Source: Ornithinimicrobium sufpigmenti
Lineage (GTDB): Bacteria; Actinomycetota; Actinomycetes; Actinomycetales; Dermatophilaceae
DNA: 64,000 nt
Assembly: GCF_004322775.1 (NCBI RefSeq)
Contig: NZ_CP036403.1
Coordinates: 1,922,001 to 1,986,000 of the forward strand
Direction: 5' to 3'
Positions 53,064 to 64,000 of the stretch are shown one piece after another; the first letter of the stretch is position 1, and every line of letters begins with the position of its first letter. Position numbers and translations under genes: made by a program. The notes below the pieces were generated by a model. The model was not told the DNA's origin and did no database searches. It saw only the letters and a list, made by a program, of their open reading frames with translations.

Positions 53064-53207
53064 ATGAAGCGCATCGTTCGTACGCTCCTCGTCGGCACGG
53101 CCACCGTCGGCATCGCGGTCGGCATGGCCATGCCCTCCAGTGCCGTCACGCTCCTCCCGGGGGGCTGCGACATCATCCTCGGACAGGTCTACTGCCACAT
53201 CCGCTGA
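53064..53207 (+). CDS. Small secreted Cys-pair peptide (47 codons)
   Basis: A short gene with a clear ribosome site (GAAGGAAG, five bases before ATG). The product has a textbook signal peptide: MKRIVR, a hydrophobic core TLLVGTATVGIAVGMAM, and a cleavage site PSSA. The expected mature part is about 20 residues, VTLLPGGCDIILGQVYCHIR, with two cysteines nine apart. It is followed by an 18-bp terminator hairpin, so it forms its own transcript, convergent with the histidine kinase gene. Possible roles are a signalling peptide sensed by that kinase or a small disulfide bacteriocin-like peptide. No homologue is known to me. Confidence 0.65.
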   Translation: MKRIVRTLLVGTATVGIAVGMAMPSSAVTLLPGGCDIILGQVYCHIR

Positions 53208-53224
53208 CCCACCTCGCACGTCCC

Positions 53225-53267
53225 GGCACCGGGGCCTGAGCCGCAGGGAGGCTCAGGCCCCGGTGCC
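53225..53267. terminator. Strong 18-bp hairpin between peptide gene and histidine kinase gene
   Basis: The arms 53225-53242 (GGCACCGGGGCCTGAGCC) and 53250-53267 are exact reverse complements with a seven-base loop GCAGGGA. It sits 17 bases after the peptide stop codon and before the end of the convergent kinase gene, and probably terminates both. It is the strongest hairpin in the window. Confidence 0.85.
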
Positions 53268-53328
53268 CGTGCTGCAGGGGTCGACCCGTCCGGCAGGAGC
53301 CAGGTGCCGACGTGCGAGCGACCTGCCG

Positions 53329-54531
53329 TTACGACGAGGGGCGCAGCGGCAGCAGGACCGTCAGCACGAAGGTGCCGTCCTCCTGAGGCCCCGACTCGAG
53401 CCGGCCGCGGAGCAGCTGCACCCGCTCCCGCAGGCCGATGAGCCCGAAGCCGGAGCGCCCGAAGTGGCGCAGGGTGCGCTGGTCGCTCACCTCGGGCAGT
53501 GCGCTGGTGATCGTGGTGACGACCTGCTGGTCCTGGACCACGGTCGAGATCGAGACCTCGGAGCGGTCGGCGCCGTGCTTGAGCACGTTGGTCGTGCCCT
53601 CACGCAGGACGCGGCGCACGGTGGTGCGCACCCCGTCCGGTATGGCGGACAGGTCGCCGCCGACGTGGGTGGTGACACGGTGGCCGAGCTCTTCGAGCTG
53701 GCCCGCGACCTCGGCGATCTCGCCGGCCAGGTCGATGCCGGCGGCCGGCGGGTCGATGTCCCCGCCCTGGCGGGGCTCACGCATGATCTGCAGCAGCAGG
53801 CGAAGGTCGTCCAGCGCGGAGCGGGCCGAGTCGCCGATGACGGTGAAGGACTCCCGCTCGTCCGGGTCCTTGGTCCGGATCGCCCCGGCGCTGGCCTGCA
53901 TGGCGATGACCGTGAGGTCGTGGGCGACGATGTCGTGCAGCTCACGGGCCAGCCCGTCGCGCTGCTCCTTCAGGGCCGCCCTGGTGGAGGTCTCGAAGTC
54001 GGCGATCGTGGCGGTGTCCTGCTCGCGCCTGGCCAGCAGGTAGCGCAGCGACAGGCCGATGACGACGGGGACGACCAGGAGGGCCAGGTAGGCGACGACC
54101 AGGGCGGTCCCGACGCCGTCGGCGGTCCGCGGCAGCATCAGCGTCCACAGGACCGTGCTCACCAGGGGGATGACGAAGGCGTGGCGGGAGGCGGCGAAGG
54201 CGACGAACCCCATCATCACCAGCAGCTCGATGGTGAACGAGCCGGGGTCGGCGCCGGTGAGGAGCAGGAAGGCCTGCAGCAGCAGCGCCGGGATCCAGGC
54301 GCGGCTGGGGGCGAAGGCCACGGTGGCCCAGAGGAAGACGTCCAGGACGCACAGGGCCAGCTCGGCCTCGACCGTCCCGAACCCGTCGGGGCCCTGGTTG
54401 GTGACCCGCCAGGCGGTGACGCCGTTGCCGACGAGGGCGATCGCGAGGATGACGAGACGAAGGGCCTGCGGGAGCCGTCTGGCTCGCCACAGGCCCTCGG
54501 GAAGGCTCGTCGTCGACCTCAGCAGAACCAC
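53329..54531 (-). CDS. Sensor histidine kinase (NarL/DesK type, HisKA_3)
   Basis: A 400-residue membrane kinase. Residues 20-165 hold about five to six hydrophobic helices with little extracellular sequence. A linker LARREQDTATIADFE leads to the HisKA_3 dimerisation helix, phospho-acceptor His199 in LARELHDIVAHDL. The ATPase domain contains LREGTTNVLKHGADRSEVSI (N-box) and GRSGFGLIGLRERV (G-box). The GTG start at 54531 has no ribosome site and lies within the end of a 32-codon peptide gene, implying translational coupling. The response regulator gene is divergent. Its signal is unknown; adjoining peptides and the RiPP cluster suggest peptide or envelope sensing. Confidence 0.93.
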   Translation of the reverse strand: MVLLRSTTSLPEGLWRARRLPQALRLVILAIALVGNGVTAWRVTNQGPDGFGTVEAELALCVLDVFLWATVAFAPSRAWIPALLLQAFLLLTGADPGSFTIELLVMMGFVAFAASRHAFVIPLVSTVLWTLMLPRTADGVGTALVVAYLALLVVPVVIGLSLRYLLARREQDTATIADFETSTRAALKEQRDGLARELHDIVAHDLTVIAMQASAGAIRTKDPDERESFTVIGDSARSALDDLRLLLQIMREPRQGGDIDPPAAGIDLAGEIAEVAGQLEELGHRVTTHVGGDLSAIPDGVRTTVRRVLREGTTNVLKHGADRSEVSISTVVQDQQVVTTITSALPEVSDQRTLRHFGRSGFGLIGLRERVQLLRGRLESGPQEDGTFVLTVLLPLRPSS

Positions 54532-54617
54532 GGGAAGATGTTACAGACTCCCGGGACGCGGAACATGGGATCCATGATGTCGACGAGGAGGGCGACGAGT
54601 GCGGGGAACGAGAGCAT
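54519..54617 (-). CDS. Tiny hydrophobic Cys-containing peptide gene overlapping the kinase start (32 codons)
   Basis: A short frame with AGGAGA five bases before ATG (54617). The product starts MLSFPALVALLVDIM, a hydrophobic stretch, then DPMFRVPGVCNIF and PWFC with a C-terminal cysteine. Its TGA overlaps the first codons of the kinase gene, which lacks its own ribosome site, so the peptide frame probably serves at least to load ribosomes on the kinase messenger. The PGVCN-IF...FC end resembles PGGCD-II...YC of the secreted peptide at 53064. It may be a pheromone-like or membrane micropeptide. It could be merely a leader frame. Confidence 0.5.
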   Translation of the reverse strand: MLSFPALVALLVDIMDPMFRVPGVCNIFPWFC

Positions 54618-54757
54618 GAGATCTCCTGTGATCTGCGCTAACGGTCAGCCGGTGCGTGACCTGGTGCCACCATCCTGGCCCCGCCCGGAGGGTCGCCGCC
54701 TCCACCTTCTGTCGCCCGCTGCATGAGACAAAAGTCGTATGTGTACCATGCAGCCTC

Positions 54758-55432
54758 ATGGGGGAGGCACCCGCGAAGATGCGACTGCTCCTGGTCGACG
54801 ACCAGCAGCTCATGCTCCAGGCGCTGCGCGTCTTCATCGAGAACGAGGACGACCTGGAGGTCGTGGGAGAGGCCTCCGACGGGATCGTCGCGATCCAGCA
54901 GGCCCGGGCGCTGCAGCCCGACGTCGTGGTGATGGACCTGCAGATGCCGCGCATGGACGGCGTCGAGGCCACCCGCCAGCTGCTGGAGACCGTGCCGGAC
55001 GTCAAGGTCGTCGCCGTCACGGCGTTCTACTCCCAGGAGTACGTCATCCCGGCGCTCAAGGCCGGCGCCAGCGGCTACCTCGTCAAGGACTCCAGCCCGG
55101 CCGACATCATCGCCGGGATCCGTGCGGCGGTGGCCGGTGAGTTCGTCGTCTCCCCCCAGGTGACCGAGATCCTCGTGCGCAGCGTCGTGGACCACCCCGA
55201 GGCCGACCTGCGCGAGACCTCCTCGGCGGAGGAGCTCGGCCTCACCGACCGGGAGATGGACGTCGTCCGGCTGCTGTGCGAGGGCTGCTCCAACCGCGAG
55301 ATCGCCCAGCAGCTGCACCTGGCCGAGCCGACCGTGAAGTCGCACATCGGGCGCATCATGGCCAAGCTGGGCGTCCGCGACCGGGTGCAGATCGTGATCG
55401 CGGCCTACCGGCTGGGGCTCGCCGAGCTGTAG
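54758..55432 (+). CDS. NarL/LuxR-type response regulator
   Basis: A two-domain response regulator: receiver with DD pair in LLLVDDQQLML, phospho-acceptor Asp60 in VVVMDLQMPRMDG, Thr in VVAVTAF and Lys110 in GYLVKDSS. The C-terminal LuxR helix-turn-helix reads LGLTDREMDVVRLLCEGCSN and REIAQQLHLAEPTVKSHI. Start: ATG 54758 would lie eight bases after a -10-like TACCAT (54744-54749), making a nearly leaderless messenger; ATG 54779 is the alternative, with GGAGG twelve bases upstream. It is divergent from its kinase and probably controls the thiopeptide genes downstream (inference). Confidence 0.92.
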   Translation: MGEAPAKMRLLLVDDQQLMLQALRVFIENEDDLEVVGEASDGIVAIQQARALQPDVVVMDLQMPRMDGVEATRQLLETVPDVKVVAVTAFYSQEYVIPALKAGASGYLVKDSSPADIIAGIRAAVAGEFVVSPQVTEILVRSVVDHPEADLRETSSAEELGLTDREMDVVRLLCEGCSNREIAQQLHLAEPTVKSHIGRIMAKLGVRDRVQIVIAAYRLGLAEL

Positions 55433-55909: not shown

Positions 55910-56095
55910 ATGTCCGCTCCCACCCTCACCACCACCATCGAGCTGCCGGACCTCGACTTCGACGGGCTGGAGGTGATGTCGGTCCGTGAGGCCGTCGCAG
56001 TGCCGGAGACCGGTGCGACGAGCGGTTCCAGCTCCTGCACCTCGACGTCCTGCTGCGGTTCCAGCTCCTGCTGCTCCTCGGGGTCCTGCGGCTGA
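55910..56095 (+). CDS. Thiopeptide-type RiPP precursor peptide
   Basis: A 61-residue precursor. The acidic leader (about 1-36) contains TIELPDLDFDGLEVMSVREA and ends VPETGA, matching the ELxDLDF...PETGA leader style of thiazolylpeptide bacteriocin precursors. The core (about 37-61) consists only of Ser, Cys, Thr and Gly: six cysteines at 43, 48, 49, 54, 55 and 60 in three consecutive C-x4-C hexads. Such residues are substrates for cyclodehydration to thiazoles and for dehydration of Ser/Thr. ATG 55910 follows AAGGAG. A hairpin after the gene probably sets a high precursor:enzyme ratio. The exact leader-core junction is inferred. Confidence 0.9.
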   Translation: MSAPTLTTTIELPDLDFDGLEVMSVREAVAVPETGATSGSSSCTSTSCCGSSSCCSSGSCG

Positions 56096-56113
56096 CGACG
56101 CCCGCTCCGCCCG

Positions 56114-56141
56114 GCCGGGGCGTTCGTCAGGACGCCCCGGC
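56114..56141 (+). terminator. Attenuator hairpin after the precursor gene
   Basis: GCCGGGGCGT (56114-56123) and ACGCCCCGGC (56132-56141) form a perfect 10-bp stem with an eight-base loop, 19 bases after the precursor stop codon and 46 bases before the ATPase gene. No T-run follows. Partial termination or processing here would favour precursor over enzymes, a common RiPP operon design. Confidence 0.75.
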
Positions 56142-56144
56142 ACG

Positions 56145-56171
56145 AGACCCACCACAGACCCACCACAGACC
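56145..56171 (+). repeat. 11-bp tandem repeat before the exporter gene
   Basis: AGACCCACCAC is present at 56145-56155 and 56156-56166, with a partial third copy at 56167-56171, right after the attenuator hairpin and just before the ribosome site AAGGAAGGA of the ATPase gene. In RNA it is an unstructured purine/C-rich tract that could keep that site accessible. Confidence 0.6.
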
Positions 56172-56187
56172 AAGGAAGGAACCCGTC

Positions 56188-57132
56188 ATGACCGCGATCC
56201 GCGCGACGAACGTGACCAAGTCCTACGCCGAGCGCCAGGTGCTGCGCGGCGTCGATCTCGCCGTGCCCGACGGCGCGATCATCGCGCTGCTGGGCCCCAA
56301 CGGCGCCGGCAAGACGTCCCTCGTCGAGATCCTCGAGGGGCACCGCCGTCGTGACGGAGGCGAGCTGCAGGTGCTGGGGTACGACCCCGGCAGCCGCTCG
56401 GACTTCCGCCGGCTGCGCCGACAGATCGGCGTGGTGCTGCAGCAGACCATGCTCGAGCCCGGCCTGCGCGTGCAGGAACTGCTCCGCCGACAGGCCGCCT
56501 ACTACCACCAGCCGCTGGACTGCCCTGCGCTGATCTCCCTGCTCGGCCTGGACGACCACGCCACCAGCCCGGTGCGCGTGCTCAGCGGGGGCCTGCGCCG
56601 CCGGCTCGACATCGCCCTGGCGCTCGTCGGTCGCCCGCGGGTGCTCTTCCTCGACGAGCCGACGACAGGGTTGGACCCGCTCTCCCGCCGCAGCATCCGC
56701 CAGCTCGTCCGCGACGTGCGCAGCGAGGGCACCACGGTGGTGCTCACCAGCCACGACCTGGAGGAGGTCCAGGAGCTCGCCGACACGGTGCACGTGCTGC
56801 ACGGCGGGGTCTTCGTCTCCGAGGGCTCGCCCGACGAGCTCATCTCGGCCAACGGCGGCCTGGTCCGGGTGGAGTTCGCCCTCAGCACCGGCGACCCGGC
56901 GCGGCTGCCCGCCGGCGCGACCCTCGTCGGCGACACCGTCCACTACGAGGTCGGCGACCAGGCGGTGCTGCTCGCCCAGCTCGGCGTCTGGGCCCAGCAG
57001 CAGGACGTCCCGCTGGGCCAGCTGCGCATCACCCAGCCCACCCTGCACGACGCCTACGCGGCGCTCGTGACCTCCTCCAGCACCTCCTCGAGCACCACCT
57101 CGAGCACCACCGCCACCACGGGAGTGAAGTGA
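56188..57132 (+). CDS. ABC exporter ATP-binding protein (thiopeptide cluster)
   Basis: A 314-residue ATPase of the drug/bacteriocin export type. Walker A GPNGAGKTSL, signature VLSGGLRRRLDIALALVG, Walker B VLFLDEPTTGLDP, and the switch His in VLTSHDLEEVQEL. The C-terminus ends in a striking Ser/Thr-only tract (SSSTSSSTTSSTTATT) of unknown role, perhaps a consequence of repeat slippage. With the next gene it should export the mature peptide or confer self-protection. It is the first gene after the precursor attenuator. Confidence 0.92.
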   Translation: MTAIRATNVTKSYAERQVLRGVDLAVPDGAIIALLGPNGAGKTSLVEILEGHRRRDGGELQVLGYDPGSRSDFRRLRRQIGVVLQQTMLEPGLRVQELLRRQAAYYHQPLDCPALISLLGLDDHATSPVRVLSGGLRRRLDIALALVGRPRVLFLDEPTTGLDPLSRRSIRQLVRDVRSEGTTVVLTSHDLEEVQELADTVHVLHGGVFVSEGSPDELISANGGLVRVEFALSTGDPARLPAGATLVGDTVHYEVGDQAVLLAQLGVWAQQQDVPLGQLRITQPTLHDAYAALVTSSSTSSSTTSSTTATTGVK

Positions 57133-57133
57133 G

Positions 57134-58015
57134 ATGACGACCGCACCCGACCACCTCGACCACCTCGACCTGTCCGCCCCGGTGGACCGCGACCGGCGAC
57201 CGCCCCTCTGGGCGCCGTTCGCGCGGCATACCGAGCTGGACCTCAAGGACTTCTGGCGCTCGCCGATCCAGCTCGCGTTCATCGTCGCCATGCCGGTGAT
57301 GTTCTACGTGATCTTCGGCTTCGCCTTCCGCGAGGCAGCCGGGGCGCAGGTCGTCGCCGGCGAGCACACGCTCACCCAGGGCAACCGCAGCTTCGCCGGT
57401 GTCCTGGCGTTCGGCCTGCTGTCGGTCGTCTTCGCCAATGTGGCGATCTCGCTGGCGGTCAAGCGCCACCACGGGCTGTTCAAGCGGTTCCGCACGACGC
57501 CGGTCTCCCCGCTGTCGGTGATGGGCGGCTACCTGGCCAACATCTTCGTCAGCCTGATGCTGGTCGTCGGCGTGCTGACCCTCATCGGGGTCACCTTCCT
57601 GGGCGTGAGCCTGCCCGCCGAGCGGATCCCTGCCCTCCTGCTGATCGTCGTTCTCGGCTTCCTCTGCATCGCGCCGCTGGGGGTGGCCTTCTCCCTGGTC
57701 CCGCCGAACGCCGACTCGGCCGTGCCGCTCGTCAACGCCGTCTTCTTCCCCGTCGCCTTCCTCTCGGGTGCGTTCATGGCCATGCCGTTCCCAGGGGCGA
57801 TCCAGGCGGTCGTCGACCTGCTCCCCGGCACGCCGCTGGTCCAGCTGCTCACCGGCAGCGTCGCCAGCACCGGCCCCGTGTGGGACGTCCCCGCACTGCT
57901 GCTGCTGGCCGCCTGGGGCGTCGTGGGCGTCATCGCCTCGGTCCTGTGGTTCTCCTGGGCCTCCGAGTCCGAGCCCCGCGGCTTCTCCCGCGGCCGTGGC
58001 AGCGAGGACGCATGA
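57134..58015 (+). CDS. ABC-2 type exporter permease (thiopeptide cluster)
   Basis: A 293-residue ABC-2 permease with about six membrane helices: ELDLKDFWRSPIQLAFIVAM, VLAFGLLSVVFANVAISLAV, KRFRTTPVSPLSVMGGYLAN and LSGAFMAMPFPGAIQAVVDL match the family. The start is one base after the ATPase stop and the end overlaps the dehydratase gene by ATGA. It is the membrane half of the peptide exporter or immunity transporter. Confidence 0.92.
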   Translation: MTTAPDHLDHLDLSAPVDRDRRPPLWAPFARHTELDLKDFWRSPIQLAFIVAMPVMFYVIFGFAFREAAGAQVVAGEHTLTQGNRSFAGVLAFGLLSVVFANVAISLAVKRHHGLFKRFRTTPVSPLSVMGGYLANIFVSLMLVVGVLTLIGVTFLGVSLPAERIPALLLIVVLGFLCIAPLGVAFSLVPPNADSAVPLVNAVFFPVAFLSGAFMAMPFPGAIQAVVDLLPGTPLVQLLTGSVASTGPVWDVPALLLLAAWGVVGVIASVLWFSWASESEPRGFSRGRGSEDA

Positions 58016-60627
58016 GCACCACCGCCCGGGACCCCTTCGTGCCGGGGTCTCCCTGCACGGACAACGACCGGATCCGCACCGCGCTGACCCCCGTCTGGGT
58101 CTCCCGCGTGAACCTCTTCCCCTACCTGTCGCTGTCCGACTCGGACCGGGTCGCCGCCGACGAGGAGGCCCTGGAGCAGCTGGCCGCGCTGGAGCGGCTG
58201 CGGGCAGGGCTGGCCGAGGAGGTCGACGCCGAGCTCACCGAGCTGGTCGACCTGGACCGGGAGCGGGCCAGCCGCGACTGGCTGCCCCTGCGGCGGGCCG
58301 CCCGCGCCGGCCGCCGGCCCAAGGACCGTCAGGTCCACGACCCGGACCTGCGGCAGCGGCCCTCGCTCGGGCACTGGCTGGCGAGCTGGCAGCGGCAGGA
58401 CGCCGTCCTGGTCGACCTGGACGGCTCCTTCGACGCGGCGGTCGCCCGCGAACGTCTGGTCGTGACCGCCTGGGCGCAGGACGAGGACGTCCAGCGCAGC
58501 ACGGTGATGACCAGCCGGTCCCTCTTCCGGGCGGTCCAGTCACGGGCCGGGGCGGTGGACGGCCTGACCAAGCGGCAGCGCAAGTCCGAGTCCTCGCTGG
58601 TCACCTACGTCGGGCGCTCGACCAGCAAGGTCAGCCCGTTCTCCCGCTACACCGGCACCGCCTTCCACCAGCTCGGTGAGGCTGCGGGCGCCCTGGGGGA
58701 GGAGCACCGCAGCGTCGTGGCGCTCCGCCGGCTGCTCGTGCGCCGGGCCGCCCGGCGGCTGGCGCAGGACCCGGTCGCCCGGCGTGCCCTCTCCTGGCGG
58801 GTCTCCGACGCCGTGCGCACCGAGGACGACGTGCTCGTCGTGCACCGGCGCGACTACGTCACCCAGGCCGCCAACAAGTCCGACGTGGTCTCCGAGAGCG
58901 ACGTCCGGCTGCCCCTCAGCGGCTCCTGGGGCGCGGTATGGAGCGAGGTCCGGACCGTCTCCGGGCGGCCCTGGGCCGACCTCGTCACGGCCCTGACCGA
59001 CCGGTTCGGCTGGGGCGCAGACCGCGCCGACGACATCATCGCGGCGCTCGTCGACCTCCAGGCACTGACGCCGGACATCCCCATCCGCGAGCAGGAGGAC
59101 GACTACCTGCCCCGCTGGGGGCGCTTCCTGCAGGACATCCCCGGCGAGGCCGCAGCGACGATGGCCGCCGCGGTGCAGGCCGGGCTGGAGGGCGAGCGCC
59201 TGCTGGCCGCAGCGCCCGCCGCGGACCGCGTGCACCAGGTGGAGCGGACCGAGGCCGCCTGGACGGCCGCCGTCGGGGAGCCGGTCGAGAACCCCTTCGC
59301 CGAGGACTGCTACGTCTCCACCGGTGCCCCGGCCGACGGGGCCCGCGTGCAGACGTGGGCGCAGCAGGTGGACGACCTCGCCCCGATGCTGGTGGTGATG
59401 GACGACCAGCGGCTGCTGGCCGCTGCCCTCGAGGCGACCTTCGTCGACCACTTCGGTGCCGGCGGCACGTGCCACGACCTGCGCCGCTTCGCCCGCCAGG
59501 CCTACGACACCTTCCCGCTCACCCAGCAGCTCCTCGCCGGCTCGGTCCCCGCGCCGATCCGGCACATCGTCCAGCCGCTGCTGGAGGCGCGGACCATCGT
59601 CGCCGACCACCTGGTGGAGCTGGGCCGCAGCGGCGGCGAGTCGGTGTCCGTCGACCTCGACGAGCTGGCCCGCGCCGCCGACCGGGTCCCGGACCGCGAG
59701 TGGGACCTGTCCCGGTCGACGACCGCCTTCGGCCAGCCTGCAGGGGAGCAGTTCGTCCTCAACCACCTCTACGGCGGCCGCGCCCGCTACTTCAGCCGGT
59801 TCCTCGCCGAGCAGCCCCCGCAGGTGCAGGAGCAGCTGCGGCAGGTCATCGAGCAGGGCCGCCCGGCCGACGCCCGCCACCTGCACCTTCGCCCGGCGCT
59901 GGGCTTCAACGCCAACCTCGGGCCACTGCTCACCGAGCACGAGATGCGGCTCACCGACGAGCCCGCCGGCCCGCGGGCGGTGCTCTCGATCGACGACCTG
60001 GCCCTCCTGCACCGGCCCTCCTCGGGGCTGCGCCTGGTCCACCGTGCGAGCGGGGACCCGGTCGAGGTCCTCTACACCGGCTTCCTCGTCCCGCACGCCC
60101 TGCCCTCCGAGGAGATGCTCCTGGCCATGGTGTCCGGCGCTCCATACTTCTCCTTCAGCGAGCTCACCCTCGACCTGCACGCGCGGCTCCAGCAGCTCCC
60201 GGCCGGCACCGCGTCGTCCGCGCCCCGCATCCAGCACCGCGACCTGCTGCTGTTCCGGCAGCGCTGGGCGGTGGACGCTCAAGACCTTGCACCACCCGCC
60301 ATGTCGAGCGACCCGGCCGAGCACTTCCGGGCCGTCACCGCCGCCCGCCTCGCCCTCGGCCTGCCTGCGCAGGTCTTCGCCCGCCCGCTGTTCGGGCGGC
60401 AGGTCAGCCCGATGGAGCGGGCGATGAGCGCCCGCCCCCAGCTGCTCGACCTCGGCTCCCGGCTGCACGTCGGCACCCTGCCGCGGCGGCTGGAGCCGCT
60501 GGGCGAGCACGTCCTCCTCGAGGAGTACCACCCCCATCCCTCGGTCCACGGCGTCCCCTCGCCGCGCGGCCGCCACGCCACCGAGCTGTTCTTCGAGATC
60601 GCTCTCGCCCCAGGAGGTCACCGATGA
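58012..60627 (+). CDS. Lantibiotic dehydratase, glutamylation (LanB N-terminal) protein
   Basis: An 871-residue LanB-type protein lacking the C-terminal elimination domain, as in split thiopeptide dehydratases. It activates Ser/Thr of the precursor by transferring glutamate from glutamyl-tRNA. Features: VSRVNLFPYLSLSDSDRVAA near the N-terminus, LVTYVGRSTSKVSPFSRYTG, LNHLYGGRARYFSRFLAEQP, RPALGFNANLGPLLTEHEMR, and FARPLFGRQVSPMERAMSAR near the C-terminus. ATG 58012 overlaps the permease stop. The next gene supplies a SpaB_C-type elimination or related domain. A Ser-rich core of the adjacent precursor is the expected substrate. Confidence 0.93.
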   Translation: MSTTARDPFVPGSPCTDNDRIRTALTPVWVSRVNLFPYLSLSDSDRVAADEEALEQLAALERLRAGLAEEVDAELTELVDLDRERASRDWLPLRRAARAGRRPKDRQVHDPDLRQRPSLGHWLASWQRQDAVLVDLDGSFDAAVARERLVVTAWAQDEDVQRSTVMTSRSLFRAVQSRAGAVDGLTKRQRKSESSLVTYVGRSTSKVSPFSRYTGTAFHQLGEAAGALGEEHRSVVALRRLLVRRAARRLAQDPVARRALSWRVSDAVRTEDDVLVVHRRDYVTQAANKSDVVSESDVRLPLSGSWGAVWSEVRTVSGRPWADLVTALTDRFGWGADRADDIIAALVDLQALTPDIPIREQEDDYLPRWGRFLQDIPGEAAATMAAAVQAGLEGERLLAAAPAADRVHQVERTEAAWTAAVGEPVENPFAEDCYVSTGAPADGARVQTWAQQVDDLAPMLVVMDDQRLLAAALEATFVDHFGAGGTCHDLRRFARQAYDTFPLTQQLLAGSVPAPIRHIVQPLLEARTIVADHLVELGRSGGESVSVDLDELARAADRVPDREWDLSRSTTAFGQPAGEQFVLNHLYGGRARYFSRFLAEQPPQVQEQLRQVIEQGRPADARHLHLRPALGFNANLGPLLTEHEMRLTDEPAGPRAVLSIDDLALLHRPSSGLRLVHRASGDPVEVLYTGFLVPHALPSEEMLLAMVSGAPYFSFSELTLDLHARLQQLPAGTASSAPRIQHRDLLLFRQRWAVDAQDLAPPAMSSDPAEHFRAVTAARLALGLPAQVFARPLFGRQVSPMERAMSARPQLLDLGSRLHVGTLPRRLEPLGEHVLLEEYHPHPSVHGVPSPRGRHATELFFEIALAPGGHR

Positions 60628-61811
60628 CACCCCTTCCCAGCACCGTCATGCGCTCGCTGCGCGTGAACTACCACGCACCCGACAAGACCGCCTTATTGCA
60701 CGACTGCCTCCTGCCGCTGGCGCGCGCGGCGCGGTCCCGGCCCGGGGTGCACTCGGCCTGGGTCCAGTCGCACTGGCGCTTCGGCCCGCACGTGTCCTTC
60801 TACGTGCACGGCGAGCGGGGCACGGTCGACCAGCTGCTCACCGAGGTCCGGTATGCCGTCTCGCACCTCGTCCAGGCAGTCCCGTCCGAGCAGCCGGTCA
60901 CCGACGAGGAGTGGGGCGCAGCCTCCGTCGAGCTGGGCCGGCTCGAGCTGGTCGAGCCGCCCTACGTCCCCGTCCGTGCGGACAACACGACGGAGCTGGT
61001 CGACGGAGGGCCGACCGACACCTTCCTGCGCACGACCCGGGCCGTGGAGGTCAAGGGCCGGGTGCTCGGGGCGGGGCTGGACTGCCTGCTCGACGACGAG
61101 GGCCAGCCGCTGCAGGGCCGGGCAGCGACGGACGCCGCCTTCCGCGGTATGGCGGCGCTGGCCTCCAGCTACCCGACCTGGGGTCTGGTCTCGGGCTACC
61201 AGGCCTTCCTGTCCCACTGGAAGGAGTACCTCTACTGGGTCGACGAGGACGCCCGGCTGAGCTCGCCGCTGATGCAGGCCTGGCAGGAGCAGAGCGTCAA
61301 CCTCAACGCCCTCGTCCAGCTGGCCCACGAGCGACGGCCCGGGACCAGCACGGGCGACCACGTCCTGGACCGGTGGTTCGCCTGGATCGACGCCGAGCTG
61401 CCGGACGCCGAGGCGCTGGCGGCGACCGGCGACGTGCTGCCCTACCCGCACTCCTCCCGGCTGGAACGGGCGGCCACCTTCGGCGACGCCACCCGCATCC
61501 AGTGGTCCGGCTCCGACGAGCGCGAGTACAGCGACTTCCACACCGCCTTCCGACAGCTGGACTTCTCCAAGCTCGGCAACGGCACCGACTTCGCCGCCTA
61601 CCGCTTCCTCATCAACACCTTCTTCGAGCTGCTGCCCCTGATGGGCATCACCCCGATGCAGCGCTACTCCCTGGCGTTCATGTTCACCGAGTCGGCCCAG
61701 GCCGTCGTCGGGGAGCGCTGGGAGGAGACGATCGCCAAGGCGGTCGCCCGGCAGAAGGCCGCCGACCCCGAGGTGGAGCCGACCCTGCCCTGGAGGGGCG
61801 AGCATGTCTGA
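60624..61811 (+). CDS. Thiopeptide-type bacteriocin biosynthesis protein (SpaB_C-like)
   Basis: A 395-residue protein of the SpaB_C/thiopeptide-type family. It begins SLRVNYHAPDKTALLHDCLL and VNYH/WVQSHWRFGPHVSFYV, typical of the family, and ends with a helical region (YSLAFMFTESAQAVVGERWE). In thiopeptide clusters one paralogue removes glutamate to form dehydroalanine (elimination), another performs the [4+2] closure giving the pyridine. Only one copy is visible here, so I do not choose between the roles; a second may lie beyond the window. ATGA overlap with the dehydratase gene shows a tight pair. Confidence 0.88.
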   Translation: MTPLPSTVMRSLRVNYHAPDKTALLHDCLLPLARAARSRPGVHSAWVQSHWRFGPHVSFYVHGERGTVDQLLTEVRYAVSHLVQAVPSEQPVTDEEWGAASVELGRLELVEPPYVPVRADNTTELVDGGPTDTFLRTTRAVEVKGRVLGAGLDCLLDDEGQPLQGRAATDAAFRGMAALASSYPTWGLVSGYQAFLSHWKEYLYWVDEDARLSSPLMQAWQEQSVNLNALVQLAHERRPGTSTGDHVLDRWFAWIDAELPDAEALAATGDVLPYPHSSRLERAATFGDATRIQWSGSDEREYSDFHTAFRQLDFSKLGNGTDFAAYRFLINTFFELLPLMGITPMQRYSLAFMFTESAQAVVGERWEETIAKAVARQKAADPEVEPTLPWRGEHV

Positions 61812-63465
61812 GACCACGCTCGTCCGGCCGGCAGTCCTTCCTGACATCGACATCCCGGCATCGCCGGTGATGCGCCTGCGACGGTCCGTGCACGTGCGCA
61901 CCCTGGAGCACCGCGGGGTGGCGGTGAGCGCCGGCCACGACGCGGTCGTGCTGGACGGCGCTGCGGCCGAGCAGCTCTGGCTCGCGCTCGAACCCCGGCT
62001 GCGGCAGGGCGTCAGCGCCGAGGCGCTGCTCGCCAGCGTGCCGGAGCGTGCCCGCCGGGTCACCGACGGCCTGTGGCAGCAGCTGGTCGACCACCGGCTG
62101 CTCTGCGTCGCCGGGTCGGTGGGGGAGGAGACCGTGTTCGCCGCAGGCCCGTTGGCGGAGCACTTCGAGCGCACGGCCCAGGACCCTGGTCGAGCGATGG
62201 CCCGCGCCCGGGTTGCCACCGTCCAGGTGGCCGGCGACCCCGCTCTGGCCGAGGCACTGCGCGGGGTACTGACGGAGACGGGCATCCTCGTCGACGCACG
62301 GACCGACGCGCAGGACCTTCCCCTTGCCGGGCTGACCCGGGAGTATGCCGTCCTCACCCTCCGGCTCGCTGCCGAGCGGCACCACGTCCTGGTGGCGCGG
62401 GCGGGAGGGTACCGGCTCGTCGGCCCGTTGCCTGCCGGCGAGGCCGAGCGGGCAGCACTGCGCCGCTGGCTGGACCTGCGTGCTGGTGAGGCGGTGACCC
62501 CGCTGTGGTCACGCGACCGGGTCGCCGACTCGCTCGCGGCGGCGCAGGCCGTGCTGGTGCTGCTGGAGATCCTCGGTGAGGCCTCCCCGGCCGGCCCGGC
62601 GCCGGTCTTCCACGTCACCTCGCCCGACGTGGTGGCCGAGCGGCATCCTCTCGCCGTCCTGCCCTCGCTGGGCCCGGCGGACCACGTCGTCGACCTCGAC
62701 GAGGTGCTCACTGCCAGCGATGCTGCCGTGCCGGTGGACGACGTCCTGCGGGCGGCCGAGCCGCTCTGGTCGGGCCCGCTGACGACGTGGCGCGGACCGG
62801 TGCCCGGCGCCCTGCCGCAGCTGCCCATCGGGCTGGCCATCGCCGGGACCGGTGCAGGTGCGGCTCCTGCCGGACCGGCGAGTACGGGCGCGACCGAGGT
62901 GGTGGGCGTGGGTCTCGACACGGCCGATGCCCGTCTCTCCTGCGTGGAGCAGCTGGTCGAGCGCGAGACCGGCCTGTCGGTCGGGCGCTCCGCGGCTGCA
63001 GCTGTGGCCAGGGCGGTGACGCGGGCCGTCATGGACGGCCTCTGGCTACCGGACCGCCAGGCTCCAGCAGTGACGACGCCGCTGGCGCGCCGCCTCCTGC
63101 AGGCGCTCACCCTGCGCGAGGGAGTGCCGGTGACCCTGCGCTCCGGCTCGACCCGGGGGCCGCTGCCGCTCACCCGCGTCGAGGTGCTCGACGAGCGCGG
63201 CAGGCGCCTGGCCACCGGTCTGGCGGCCGAGCCCGATCGGGCGGTCGAGGAGGCGCTGCTGGCAGGGCTCGGGGCGGTCCAGGCGGCCCCGCACGGGGTC
63301 AGCGTGAGCACCGCTCCGATGCCACGGCTGCCCAGCACCCAGGAGAACCTTGTCCGCTGGGCGTTGGCGTCCGGTCCGGTGGTCCGTCGCCCGGCCGGCT
63401 CGCCGCTCTGGTCCGCACTCGGGCTCCATGCCTGCATCGCCGACGGTCCGGAGGACCAGGCATGA
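61804..63465 (+). CDS. Ocin-ThiF-like TOMM partner protein
   Basis: A 553-residue protein. The first 100 residues look like a PqqD-like leader-recognition winged helix (AVVLDGAAAEQLWLALEPRL, VTDGLWQQLVDHRLL). The centre is a degenerate E1/ThiF-like fold (VATVQVAGDPALAEALRGVL; TREYAVLTLRLAAERHHVLV). The C-terminus is variable. Such F-proteins bind the precursor leader and hand it to the YcaO cyclodehydratase, whose gene follows with an ATGA overlap. It starts eight bases before the previous stop. No ATP-binding site is obvious, consistent with a scaffold role. Confidence 0.78.
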   Translation: MSETTLVRPAVLPDIDIPASPVMRLRRSVHVRTLEHRGVAVSAGHDAVVLDGAAAEQLWLALEPRLRQGVSAEALLASVPERARRVTDGLWQQLVDHRLLCVAGSVGEETVFAAGPLAEHFERTAQDPGRAMARARVATVQVAGDPALAEALRGVLTETGILVDARTDAQDLPLAGLTREYAVLTLRLAAERHHVLVARAGGYRLVGPLPAGEAERAALRRWLDLRAGEAVTPLWSRDRVADSLAAAQAVLVLLEILGEASPAGPAPVFHVTSPDVVAERHPLAVLPSLGPADHVVDLDEVLTASDAAVPVDDVLRAAEPLWSGPLTTWRGPVPGALPQLPIGLAIAGTGAGAAPAGPASTGATEVVGVGLDTADARLSCVEQLVERETGLSVGRSAAAAVARAVTRAVMDGLWLPDRQAPAVTTPLARRLLQALTLREGVPVTLRSGSTRGPLPLTRVEVLDERGRRLATGLAAEPDRAVEEALLAGLGAVQAAPHGVSVSTAPMPRLPSTQENLVRWALASGPVVRRPAGSPLWSALGLHACIADGPEDQA

Positions 63466-64000
63466 CTGCCCTCGCGGCAGCGCCGCCGCAGCCGGTGGAC
63501 GCGCTGCTCCTGACCCTCATCCGGGCCGGCCGTGCCACCGAGACGTCGGGCGCCCGCACCGTCGAGCTGTTCGCCGACGATTCCGAGCTGCTCCTCGGCG
63601 TGCCACCGGCGACGGAGCAGCACGGCTGCCTGGACTGCGCGACCCTGTGGCGTCAGGACACCAGCGCCCTCACGCCCGGCACCGGCGCCCGTGACTGGCT
63701 GACCACACCGCCGTGGTCGGATCTGGTCCACGCCCTCCTCGGGCACCACACCCGGGCGCTGCAAGGTCCAGCAGCAACACCGCATACCTTCACCACAGCG
63801 CTCCAGACCGCCGTCACCACGCCCGTTCCTGGCGCGACCGTGACCGTCCTGCGCCGCGACGACGCCACCGTGGACTCCTACCGGTTCCTCCGGCACCCGG
63901 CCTGCCTCCGCTGCGGCCCCCTGGCGGACCGCTCCACCGCCACCGCGCTGGACCTTCGCAGTCCGCAACCCGCCCTCGCGGGCACGCTACGCGTCCGGCC
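63462..64000 (+). CDS. Probable YcaO-type TOMM cyclodehydratase, N-terminal part
   Basis: The first 179 codons of a gene cut by the window end. Two cysteine pairs, GCLDCATLW (about residues 52-60) and PACLRCGPL (about 146-154), form a probable zinc tetrathiolate, as in the N-terminal region of thiopeptide cyclodehydratases fused to YcaO. The YcaO ATP-binding core itself is not inside the window, so the call rests on the N-terminal pattern and position after the ThiF-like gene (ATGA overlap). The enzyme would convert cysteines of the precursor to thiazolines. Confidence 0.65.
   Translation, partial: MTALAAAPPQPVDALLLTLIRAGRATETSGARTVELFADDSELLLGVPPATEQHGCLDCATLWRQDTSALTPGTGARDWLTTPPWSDLVHALLGHHTRALQGPAATPHTFTTALQTAVTTPVPGATVTVLRRDDATVDSYRFLRHPACLRCGPLADRSTATALDLRSPQPALAGTLRVR

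Follow-up and report, generated by a model that had tools for sequence, protein, structure and literature searches.

Thiopeptides inhibit bacterial translation and serve as drug leads (as outlined in PMC7136475), and in the part of PMC4603692 that treats them, F-protein-dependent thiopeptide cyclodehydratases are described and homologues of the [4+2] enzyme are called ubiquitous in thiopeptide clusters. Lactazole formation needs Ser1, Ser10, Ser11, Ser12 and Cys13 of the core, and known rings measure 26-35 atoms, according to the passages of PMC7210931 on this point. The precursor family NF033400 is called a thiazolylpeptide family in an actinobacterial YcaO tree, where the passage concerned gives no product (PMC8442711), and as a Nocardiopsis thiopeptide the relevant portion of PMC5983278 cites only TP-1161. 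Here, we describe a thiopeptide-type gene cluster at the right end of a 64,000-nucleotide stretch of the Ornithinimicrobium sufpigmenti genome (bases 1922001-1986000 of the 4.17-Mb single-contig genome), a stretch that is called the window below. The window and its right flank together hold a complete, chromosomal thiopeptide-type set, which we read, with a probability of roughly 80%, as a complete lactazole-like thiopeptide cluster of an Ornithinimicrobium-type actinobacterium following the pathway proposed below.

Gene content and order of the cluster

The genes from the precursor to the last biosynthetic protein are listed here with their family assignments and predicted roles. Positions beyond 64000 are window-equivalent, a coordinate in the sequence L003 plus 52000 giving the window position.

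55910..56095, + strand: thiopeptide precursor gene, 61 amino acids (aa); leader codons 55910-56017, core codons 56018-56092
56188..57132, + strand: ATP-binding cassette (ABC) exporter ATPase, DrrA-like (PF00005, 96.2 bits)
57134..58015, + strand: ABC-2 type permease (PF01061, 72.9 bits)
58012..60627, + strand: split-LanB half for tRNA-dependent glutamylation, LazB/TbtB role, 871 aa (PF04738, Lant_dehydr_N)
60624..61811, + strand: homologue of TbtD/PbtD/LazC-type pyridine ([4+2]) synthases, 395 aa
61804..63465, + strand: ocin-ThiF-like leader-binding partner, 553 aa (RRE at residues 18-104, ThiF/MccB-like to ~285, YcaO-like at 303-553)
63462..64000 in the window, ending at 65315 (L003:11462-13315), + strand: YcaO cyclodehydratase with a truncated C domain, 617 aa
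65315-66667 (window-equivalent): nitroreductase-fold protein, 450 aa
66664-68634 (window-equivalent): fusion of a glutamate-elimination domain with a SagB-type dehydrogenase, 656 aa

An earlier note on this DNA had listed a precursor, an ABC exporter, a LanB glutamylation domain, the 395-aa and 553-aa proteins and the start of a YcaO gene, all of which are present at 55910-64000; the overlaps it gave are exact, with 4 bases (ATGA) at 58012-58015, 60624-60627 and 63462-63465 and 8 bases at 61804-61811. As it had also supposed, the cluster runs off the window, continuing rightward to window-equivalent 70084, and the coupling persists there: the YcaO and 450-aa genes overlap by 1 base, and 4-base overlaps then lead on to the genes of the 656-aa fusion, a 68-aa protein and an M20-family protein. 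The YcaO domain and the azoline dehydrogenase that it expected to the right of 64000 were found, the former with 235 bits to PF02624 and the latter as azoline-dehydrogenase-type domains at or right of that position. With a YcaO protein, a split LanB, an azoline dehydrogenase and a pyridine synthase homologue all in place, its assignment to the thiopeptide class is borne out.

The individual matches are as follows. The YcaO protein scores 234.4 bits against TIGR03604 (cut-off, 219.25) and 27 bits against TIGR03882, under the cut-off of 36.9. In the 871-aa protein, PF04738 spans residues 156-789 (92.9 bits, E=1.9e-26), and a PDB sequence search with this protein gave no match; it would correspond to TbtB and to LazB, which we take to be the glutamylation half of the lactazole system. 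The partner expected of a split LanB lies in the fusion, which carries PF14028 at residues 50-339 (145.7 bits) and scores 113.2 bits against TIGR03891 (cut-off, 48.45); it also contains the stretch HMMNNRLGLS, presumably of the elimination type. Its dehydrogenase part matches PF00881 at residues 545-622 (36.2 bits; cut-off, 23.5) and reaches 74.9 bits against TIGR03605, just below 78.4. The azoline dehydrogenase is thus represented by the PF00881 domain of the fusion, and the 450-aa protein shows a nitroreductase fold. For the exporter ATPase, the best NCBIfam model was TIGR01188 (195.5 bits, under the cut-off of 312.45).

The gene order is more than chance, because the precursor and the YcaO protein score above the cut-offs of NF033400 and TIGR03604, respectively, and all genes from the exporter to the fusion, both exporter genes included, were detected by tblastn in 18 of 18 related loci. 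These 18 loci were selected on precursor and fusion and refetched around fusion-gene matches, so that the fusion is present in them by choice.

The 395-aa protein is a distant pyridine synthase homologue

A pyridine synthase homologue is the feature that divides thiopeptides from linear peptides of the goadsporin type. The sole NCBIfam match of the 395-aa protein at E<=0.01 is NF045556, the TbtD_PbtD_pyrid equivalog, covered from profile position 3 to 352 of 354 with 132 bits, a score that does not reach the cut-off of 325. In the PDB, it matches TbtD (5wa3) at E=1.5e-10 over residues 12-371 and PbtD at 3.4e-7, nearly over its full length, and its C-terminal AYRFLIN...LMGITPMQR aligns with AYRLVIN...RLGLTPHQR of TbtD. 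It is told apart from proteins of the elimination type by coverage of the whole profile, by having no TIGR03891 match and by this TbtD-like C-terminal stretch. By sequence, then, the gene at 60624 encodes a distant homologue of pyridine synthases, whose predicted activity is unproven by the model score. The earlier note had called this gene SpaB_C-like; the product is pyridine-synthase-like rather than an elimination protein, and the elimination protein is encoded by the later, dehydrogenase-fused gene.

Among 8000 candidates scored, 49 homologues of the 395-aa protein were found at E<=1e-10. The names seen for 17 of these 49 were all "hypothetical protein" or "lantibiotic dehydratase C-terminal domain-containing protein", one of them also "Thiopeptide-type bacteriocin", and such uninformative names mean that the cluster type is easily overlooked.

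Leader-binding partner and cyclodehydratase

In the predicted model of the 553-aa protein, a PbtF-like RRE is followed by a part resembling ThiF/MccB and another resembling YcaO. This preserves one half of the "ocin-ThiF-like" label given earlier, in that the RRE and the ThiF-like fold appear in the model; the other half, a sequence family match, was not found, since none of 18 homologues matched the ocin-ThiF-like model in NCBIfam at E<=1. We take the model of the ocin-ThiF-like F protein to be TIGR03693. The YcaO-like fold (residues 303-553) is without the conserved acidic residues and looks degenerate, and the model suggests a cyclodehydratase that pairs an active YcaO unit with an inactive one. 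PDB sequence searches with the 553-aa and 450-aa proteins returned nothing or chance matches only, and an NCBIfam scan of 18 homologues of the 450-aa protein gave no result.

An unchanged core peptide against drifting enzymes

The precursor consists of a 36-aa leader ending in ETGA and a 25-aa core in which 21 residues are Cys, Ser or Thr and 4 are Gly. Its scores lie above the cut-offs of NF033400 (64.6 bits; cut-off, 30), TIGR03892 (32.2; 25) and PF19409 (47.0; 23.5), so that by sequence it is a member of a known, widespread curated family. A first search gave 18 precursor homologues, and a profile search gave 202 among 8000 candidates scored, of which 120 were listed. The earlier statement that the product is likely new therefore stands in part: the core strings matched no relevant paper (none in a first literature search; in a second, only via SSGSSSS, in papers whose titles point to unrelated subjects), but NF033400 includes the precursor, and many other genomes carry an identical core. 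No product described for the NF033400-type family or cluster was found in the literature searched; the Schwalen thiopeptide mining study may contain one.

Scanning species-representative genomes with the precursor alignment yielded 25 loci, of which 17 belong to Nocardiopsis, 4 to three Curtobacterium genomes and 2 to Arthrobacter, with one each from Catellatospora and from a record that bears the label Glycomyces fuscus. Leaving aside the distant Catellatospora locus and adding the window and the same-genus locus L040, we compared 26 loci with 42 precursor genes. Of the 42 genes, 21, counting that of the window, share its 25-residue core without any change (16 from Nocardiopsis loci, 3 from Curtobacterium, one from the Glycomyces record and the window's own), and 15 further genes carry a single Ser-to-Gly change. 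At the DNA level, the remaining 20 of the 21 differ from the window in 8-12 of the 25 core codons (mean, 9.5), and the shared cores are for that reason not the result of recent transfer. Over 50 codons, the mean proportion of synonymous differences (pS) was 0.47 and that of nonsynonymous differences (pN) 0.09, the latter inflated by switches between TCN and AGY serine codons (n=40 of the 42; one shorter precursor was omitted, and the window's own served as the reference). The precursor is thus under clear purifying selection in the relatives.

The most striking property of the cluster is this unchanged core against drifting enzymes. Median identity to the window across the related loci is 85% for the precursor, 53 and 56% for the exporter genes, 50% for the pyridine synthase, 47% for the YcaO protein, 43% for the LanB half, 42% for the fusion, 38% for the 450-aa protein and 36% for the 553-aa protein; the medians use 15-18 of the 18 loci, with 2-3 absent for the permease, pyridine synthase, 553-aa protein and fusion, all of which tblastn sees in all 18.

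Of the 23 named genomes with close precursors, 22 have both pyridine synthase and fusion (17 in the related loci and 5 of the remaining 6). Within the Dermatophilaceae, the family of the window genome, NF033400 matches occur in 10 of 186 genomes, 8 of them over the cut-off; a phylum survey of 396 genomes found the precursor family in 4, all with NF045556, and NF045556 alone in 2 more, but with several of these matches covering only part of the profile, we give this survey no weight. In distant relatives with other precursors (L062, L063), only an elimination-type protein was seen, with no separate pyridine synthase. Relatives of the pyridine synthase turn up in four plasmid records. One of these, the mobilizable (MOBF) plasmid pCL-A6099 of Clavibacter sp. 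A6099, carries the full precursor-to-fusion set, in which the core is the variant TSGSSSSNSSSCCGSSSCCSSS, so that mobility is possible for this type of cluster.

Two precursor genes stand in tandem before the exporter in 15 of the Nocardiopsis loci; the remaining two of the 17 lie on contigs that begin just ahead of the gene. In Curtobacterium sp. VKM Ac-1376 (L025, L028), a second precursor follows the M20 gene at the far end of the cluster. The record labelled Glycomyces fuscus TRM 49117 (L008) is Nocardiopsis-like in gene order, tandem precursors and identities and may be either a mislabelled record or a case of transfer.

Candidate ring-closing serines

To compare core positions, we used 121 proteins (the window's own and the 120 listed of 202), of which 118 gave a core and 117 were in register, amounting to 72 distinct 19-residue cores. 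Ser11, Cys13, Gly14 and Ser17 are invariant in all 72, Ser2 is present in 70, and Ser5 and Ser6 are each present in 67. The pair Ser11/Ser17, which would close a ring of 17 atoms, has azole-forming neighbours in 70 of the 72 cores, the most of all pairs tested, and the pairs Ser6/Ser17 (32 atoms), Ser5/Ser17 (35) and Ser2/Ser11 (26) are each available in 65 (ring atoms were computed as 3d-1 from the spacing d, a rule fitted to thiopeptides known to us). By analogy with lactazole, the likeliest 4-pi ring-closing partner would be Ser17 in Gly-Ser-Ser-Ser17-Cys, joined with Ser6 or Ser5.

Proposed pathway and alternative readings

On the model of homologous pathways, the RRE of the 553-aa protein would bind the conserved leader, and the 553-aa and YcaO proteins would convert the cysteines and some of the serines and threonines of the core to azolines, which the flavin mononucleotide (FMN) dehydrogenase domains of the 450-aa protein and of the C-terminal half of the fusion would oxidise to azoles. 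Other serines would be glutamylated from Glu-tRNA by the 871-aa LanB half, and elimination of glutamate by the N-terminal half of the fusion would leave dehydroalanines. The 395-aa pyridine synthase would then join two dehydroalanines in a [4+2] cycloaddition, with aromatisation of the ring and release of the leader, and the DrrAB-type transporter would export the product. The macrocycle and a role as an antibiotic that inhibits translation are likewise expected by analogy, and the cluster is probably active.

Several observations weigh against this reading. Besides the low score of the 395-aa protein, NF045556 matches all 15 members of the mixed alignment A4, in which the row for the pyridine synthase of L045 is partly out of frame and meaningless in its N-terminal portion; since two of the 15 are elimination-type proteins that also match TIGR03891, a bare NF045556 match does not discriminate. 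The sequence by itself is compatible with several ring-closing serine pairs. To our knowledge, the core matches no characterised thiopeptide, and reading the gene list showed no immunity gene besides the exporter, no search of the flanks having been made. Finally, in Curtobacterium aurantiacum CFBP 8824 (L017), the core is identical and the two exporter genes are present, with unrelated genes after them, and the draft genome holds no match anywhere to the pyridine synthase or the fusion, so that the core can persist without these enzymes, at least for a while; possibly this strain lost the enzymes but retained the exporter, e.g., as protection against producing neighbours.

If the product were a linear, goadsporin-like peptide of azoles and dehydroalanines, the 395-aa protein would no longer form pyridines or would act as a second elimination or partner protein, which would suit its score far under the equivalog cut-off, the Ser-Cys runs of the core that resemble linear azole peptides, and the example of the coryneazolisins, which, as described in PMC4603692, combine YcaO proteins with lanthipeptide-like dehydratases and no cycloaddition enzyme. 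We nevertheless consider it unlikely, as the 395-aa protein matches TbtD over its whole length and shows 43-63% identity to the corresponding proteins of 16 of the 18 related loci measured (38% in L057, by tblastn), and as the fusion already supplies a separate, typical elimination domain (TIGR03891, 113 bits). About as improbable in our view is a pyridine macrocycle of unusual size, closed by Ser11/Ser17 (17 atoms) or Ser6/Ser11 (14 atoms) and nearer to the pyritides than to classical thiopeptides. The invariance of Ser11, Cys13, Gly14 and Ser17 and the top availability of Ser11/Ser17 would fit such a ring, as would the 14-atom rings that Laz enzymes yield in vitro, at low efficiency in the account of PMC7210931; however, the first ten core residues, which are conserved, would be lost with the leader, and pairs of classical size are nearly as available, in a comparison that took in all 72 cores irrespective of a pyridine synthase in their clusters. 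Decay or silence of the cluster, with no product formed, seems highly improbable: the pyridine synthase gene of Nocardiopsis sp. CNR-923 (L045) is shortened, and CFBP 8824 stands without two of the enzymes, but all cluster genes in the window are open and translationally coupled, and selection in the relatives is clearly purifying.

Returning to the lactazole-like reading, it is tempting to speculate, and we do so only tentatively, that one mature thiopeptide of a Ser/Cys/Thr/Gly core has been held fixed by purifying selection across several actinobacterial genera, with a near variant on a plasmid, while its enzymes drifted to about half identity or less, possibly with an unusual Ser11/Ser17 ring. 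If true, this would be in keeping with a molecule that an invariant target holds constant, or one that serves as a shared signal, and not with a member of a diversifying antibiotic arms race. The cluster type spans the 17 Nocardiopsis loci, Curtobacterium, Arthrobacter, Ornithinimicrobium-type genomes and the Clavibacter plasmid, and the fixed core against changing enzymes turns the question of what constrains the core into one that is testable with a single compound.

Flanking genes and other features

The following features lie beside or within the cluster.

53329..54531, - strand: sensor histidine kinase, divergent from the response regulator (PF07730, 49.6 bits; PF02518, 25.9 bits, just under 26.4)
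54779..55432, + strand: LuxR-type response regulator (PF00072, 98.2 bits; PF00196, 68.9 bits)
56112..56144, + strand: GC-rich hairpin between the precursor and exporter genes, without a T run
68631-68837 (window-equivalent): 68-aa protein, membrane-type by eye
68834-70084 (window-equivalent): M20-family amidohydrolase (TIGR01891, 177 bits; cut-off, 153.75)

The regulator and kinase are possible cluster regulators of uncertain membership; two-component genes stand beside the cluster in 1 of the 18 related loci, and the response regulator has a counterpart in L040. An open reading frame on the + strand at 53140-54726 was rejected as the kinase, being antisense to the gene at 53329-54531. The hairpin, a possible partial terminator or mRNA stabiliser, is weak: bases 56090-56187 fold with -37.4 kcal/mol (z, -1.85), and 6 of 200 shuffles were equally good. 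The 68-aa and M20 genes close the operon in just 3 of the 18 related loci, two of them from Curtobacterium and one from a same-genus genome, and possibly serve product trimming or self-protection; a Pfam scan of the 68-aa protein gave no match. About 0.9 kb past the M20 gene, L003:18945-18973 is a run of 29 G, either real or an assembly feature. Outside the window, the same genome holds a second azole-peptide set (L002, ~268 kb) of overlapping or adjacent genes for a 319-aa C-type, a 470-aa YcaO and a 277-aa SagB-like protein, the YcaO protein assigned by PF02624 and the other two by eye.

Comparison with known systems

Goadsporin and the coryneazolisins share with the window cluster a YcaO protein and lanthipeptide-like dehydratases, split in goadsporin, and differ in being without the [4+2] enzyme whose homologue is encoded here, going by the part of PMC4603692 that covers them. 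Dehydrazoles were considered as the closest class and rejected, their dehydratase being, in the description of PMC10676384, a DUF4135 protein and not a LanB. The "thiazolylpeptide-type bacteriocin" precursors of NF033400, TIGR03892 and PF19409 include the window precursor, above all three cut-offs. With thiomuracin and GE2270A, the cluster shares a 395-aa protein homologous to TbtD and PbtD and a 553-aa protein whose RRE is like that of PbtF; it differs in the distance of its pyridine synthase homologue, below the NF045556 cut-off, and in the fusion of its elimination and dehydrogenase domains. The cores of thiomuracin and GE2270A are not known to be related to that of the window. Lactazole (lazA-F of Streptomyces lactacystinaeus), as portrayed in PMC7210931, has in common with the window cluster a pyridine synthase (LazC), an RRE protein with a YcaO protein, a fusion of elimination and FMN dehydrogenase domains (LazF) and a Ser-Ser-Ser-Cys motif around the ring-closing serine of the core. 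This likeness rests on gene content and the published description rather than on a sequence comparison with the Laz proteins, and to the lactazole set the window cluster adds a DrrAB-type exporter and the 450-aa nitroreductase-fold protein; it differs further in its 25-residue core, made up solely of Ser, Cys, Thr and Gly.

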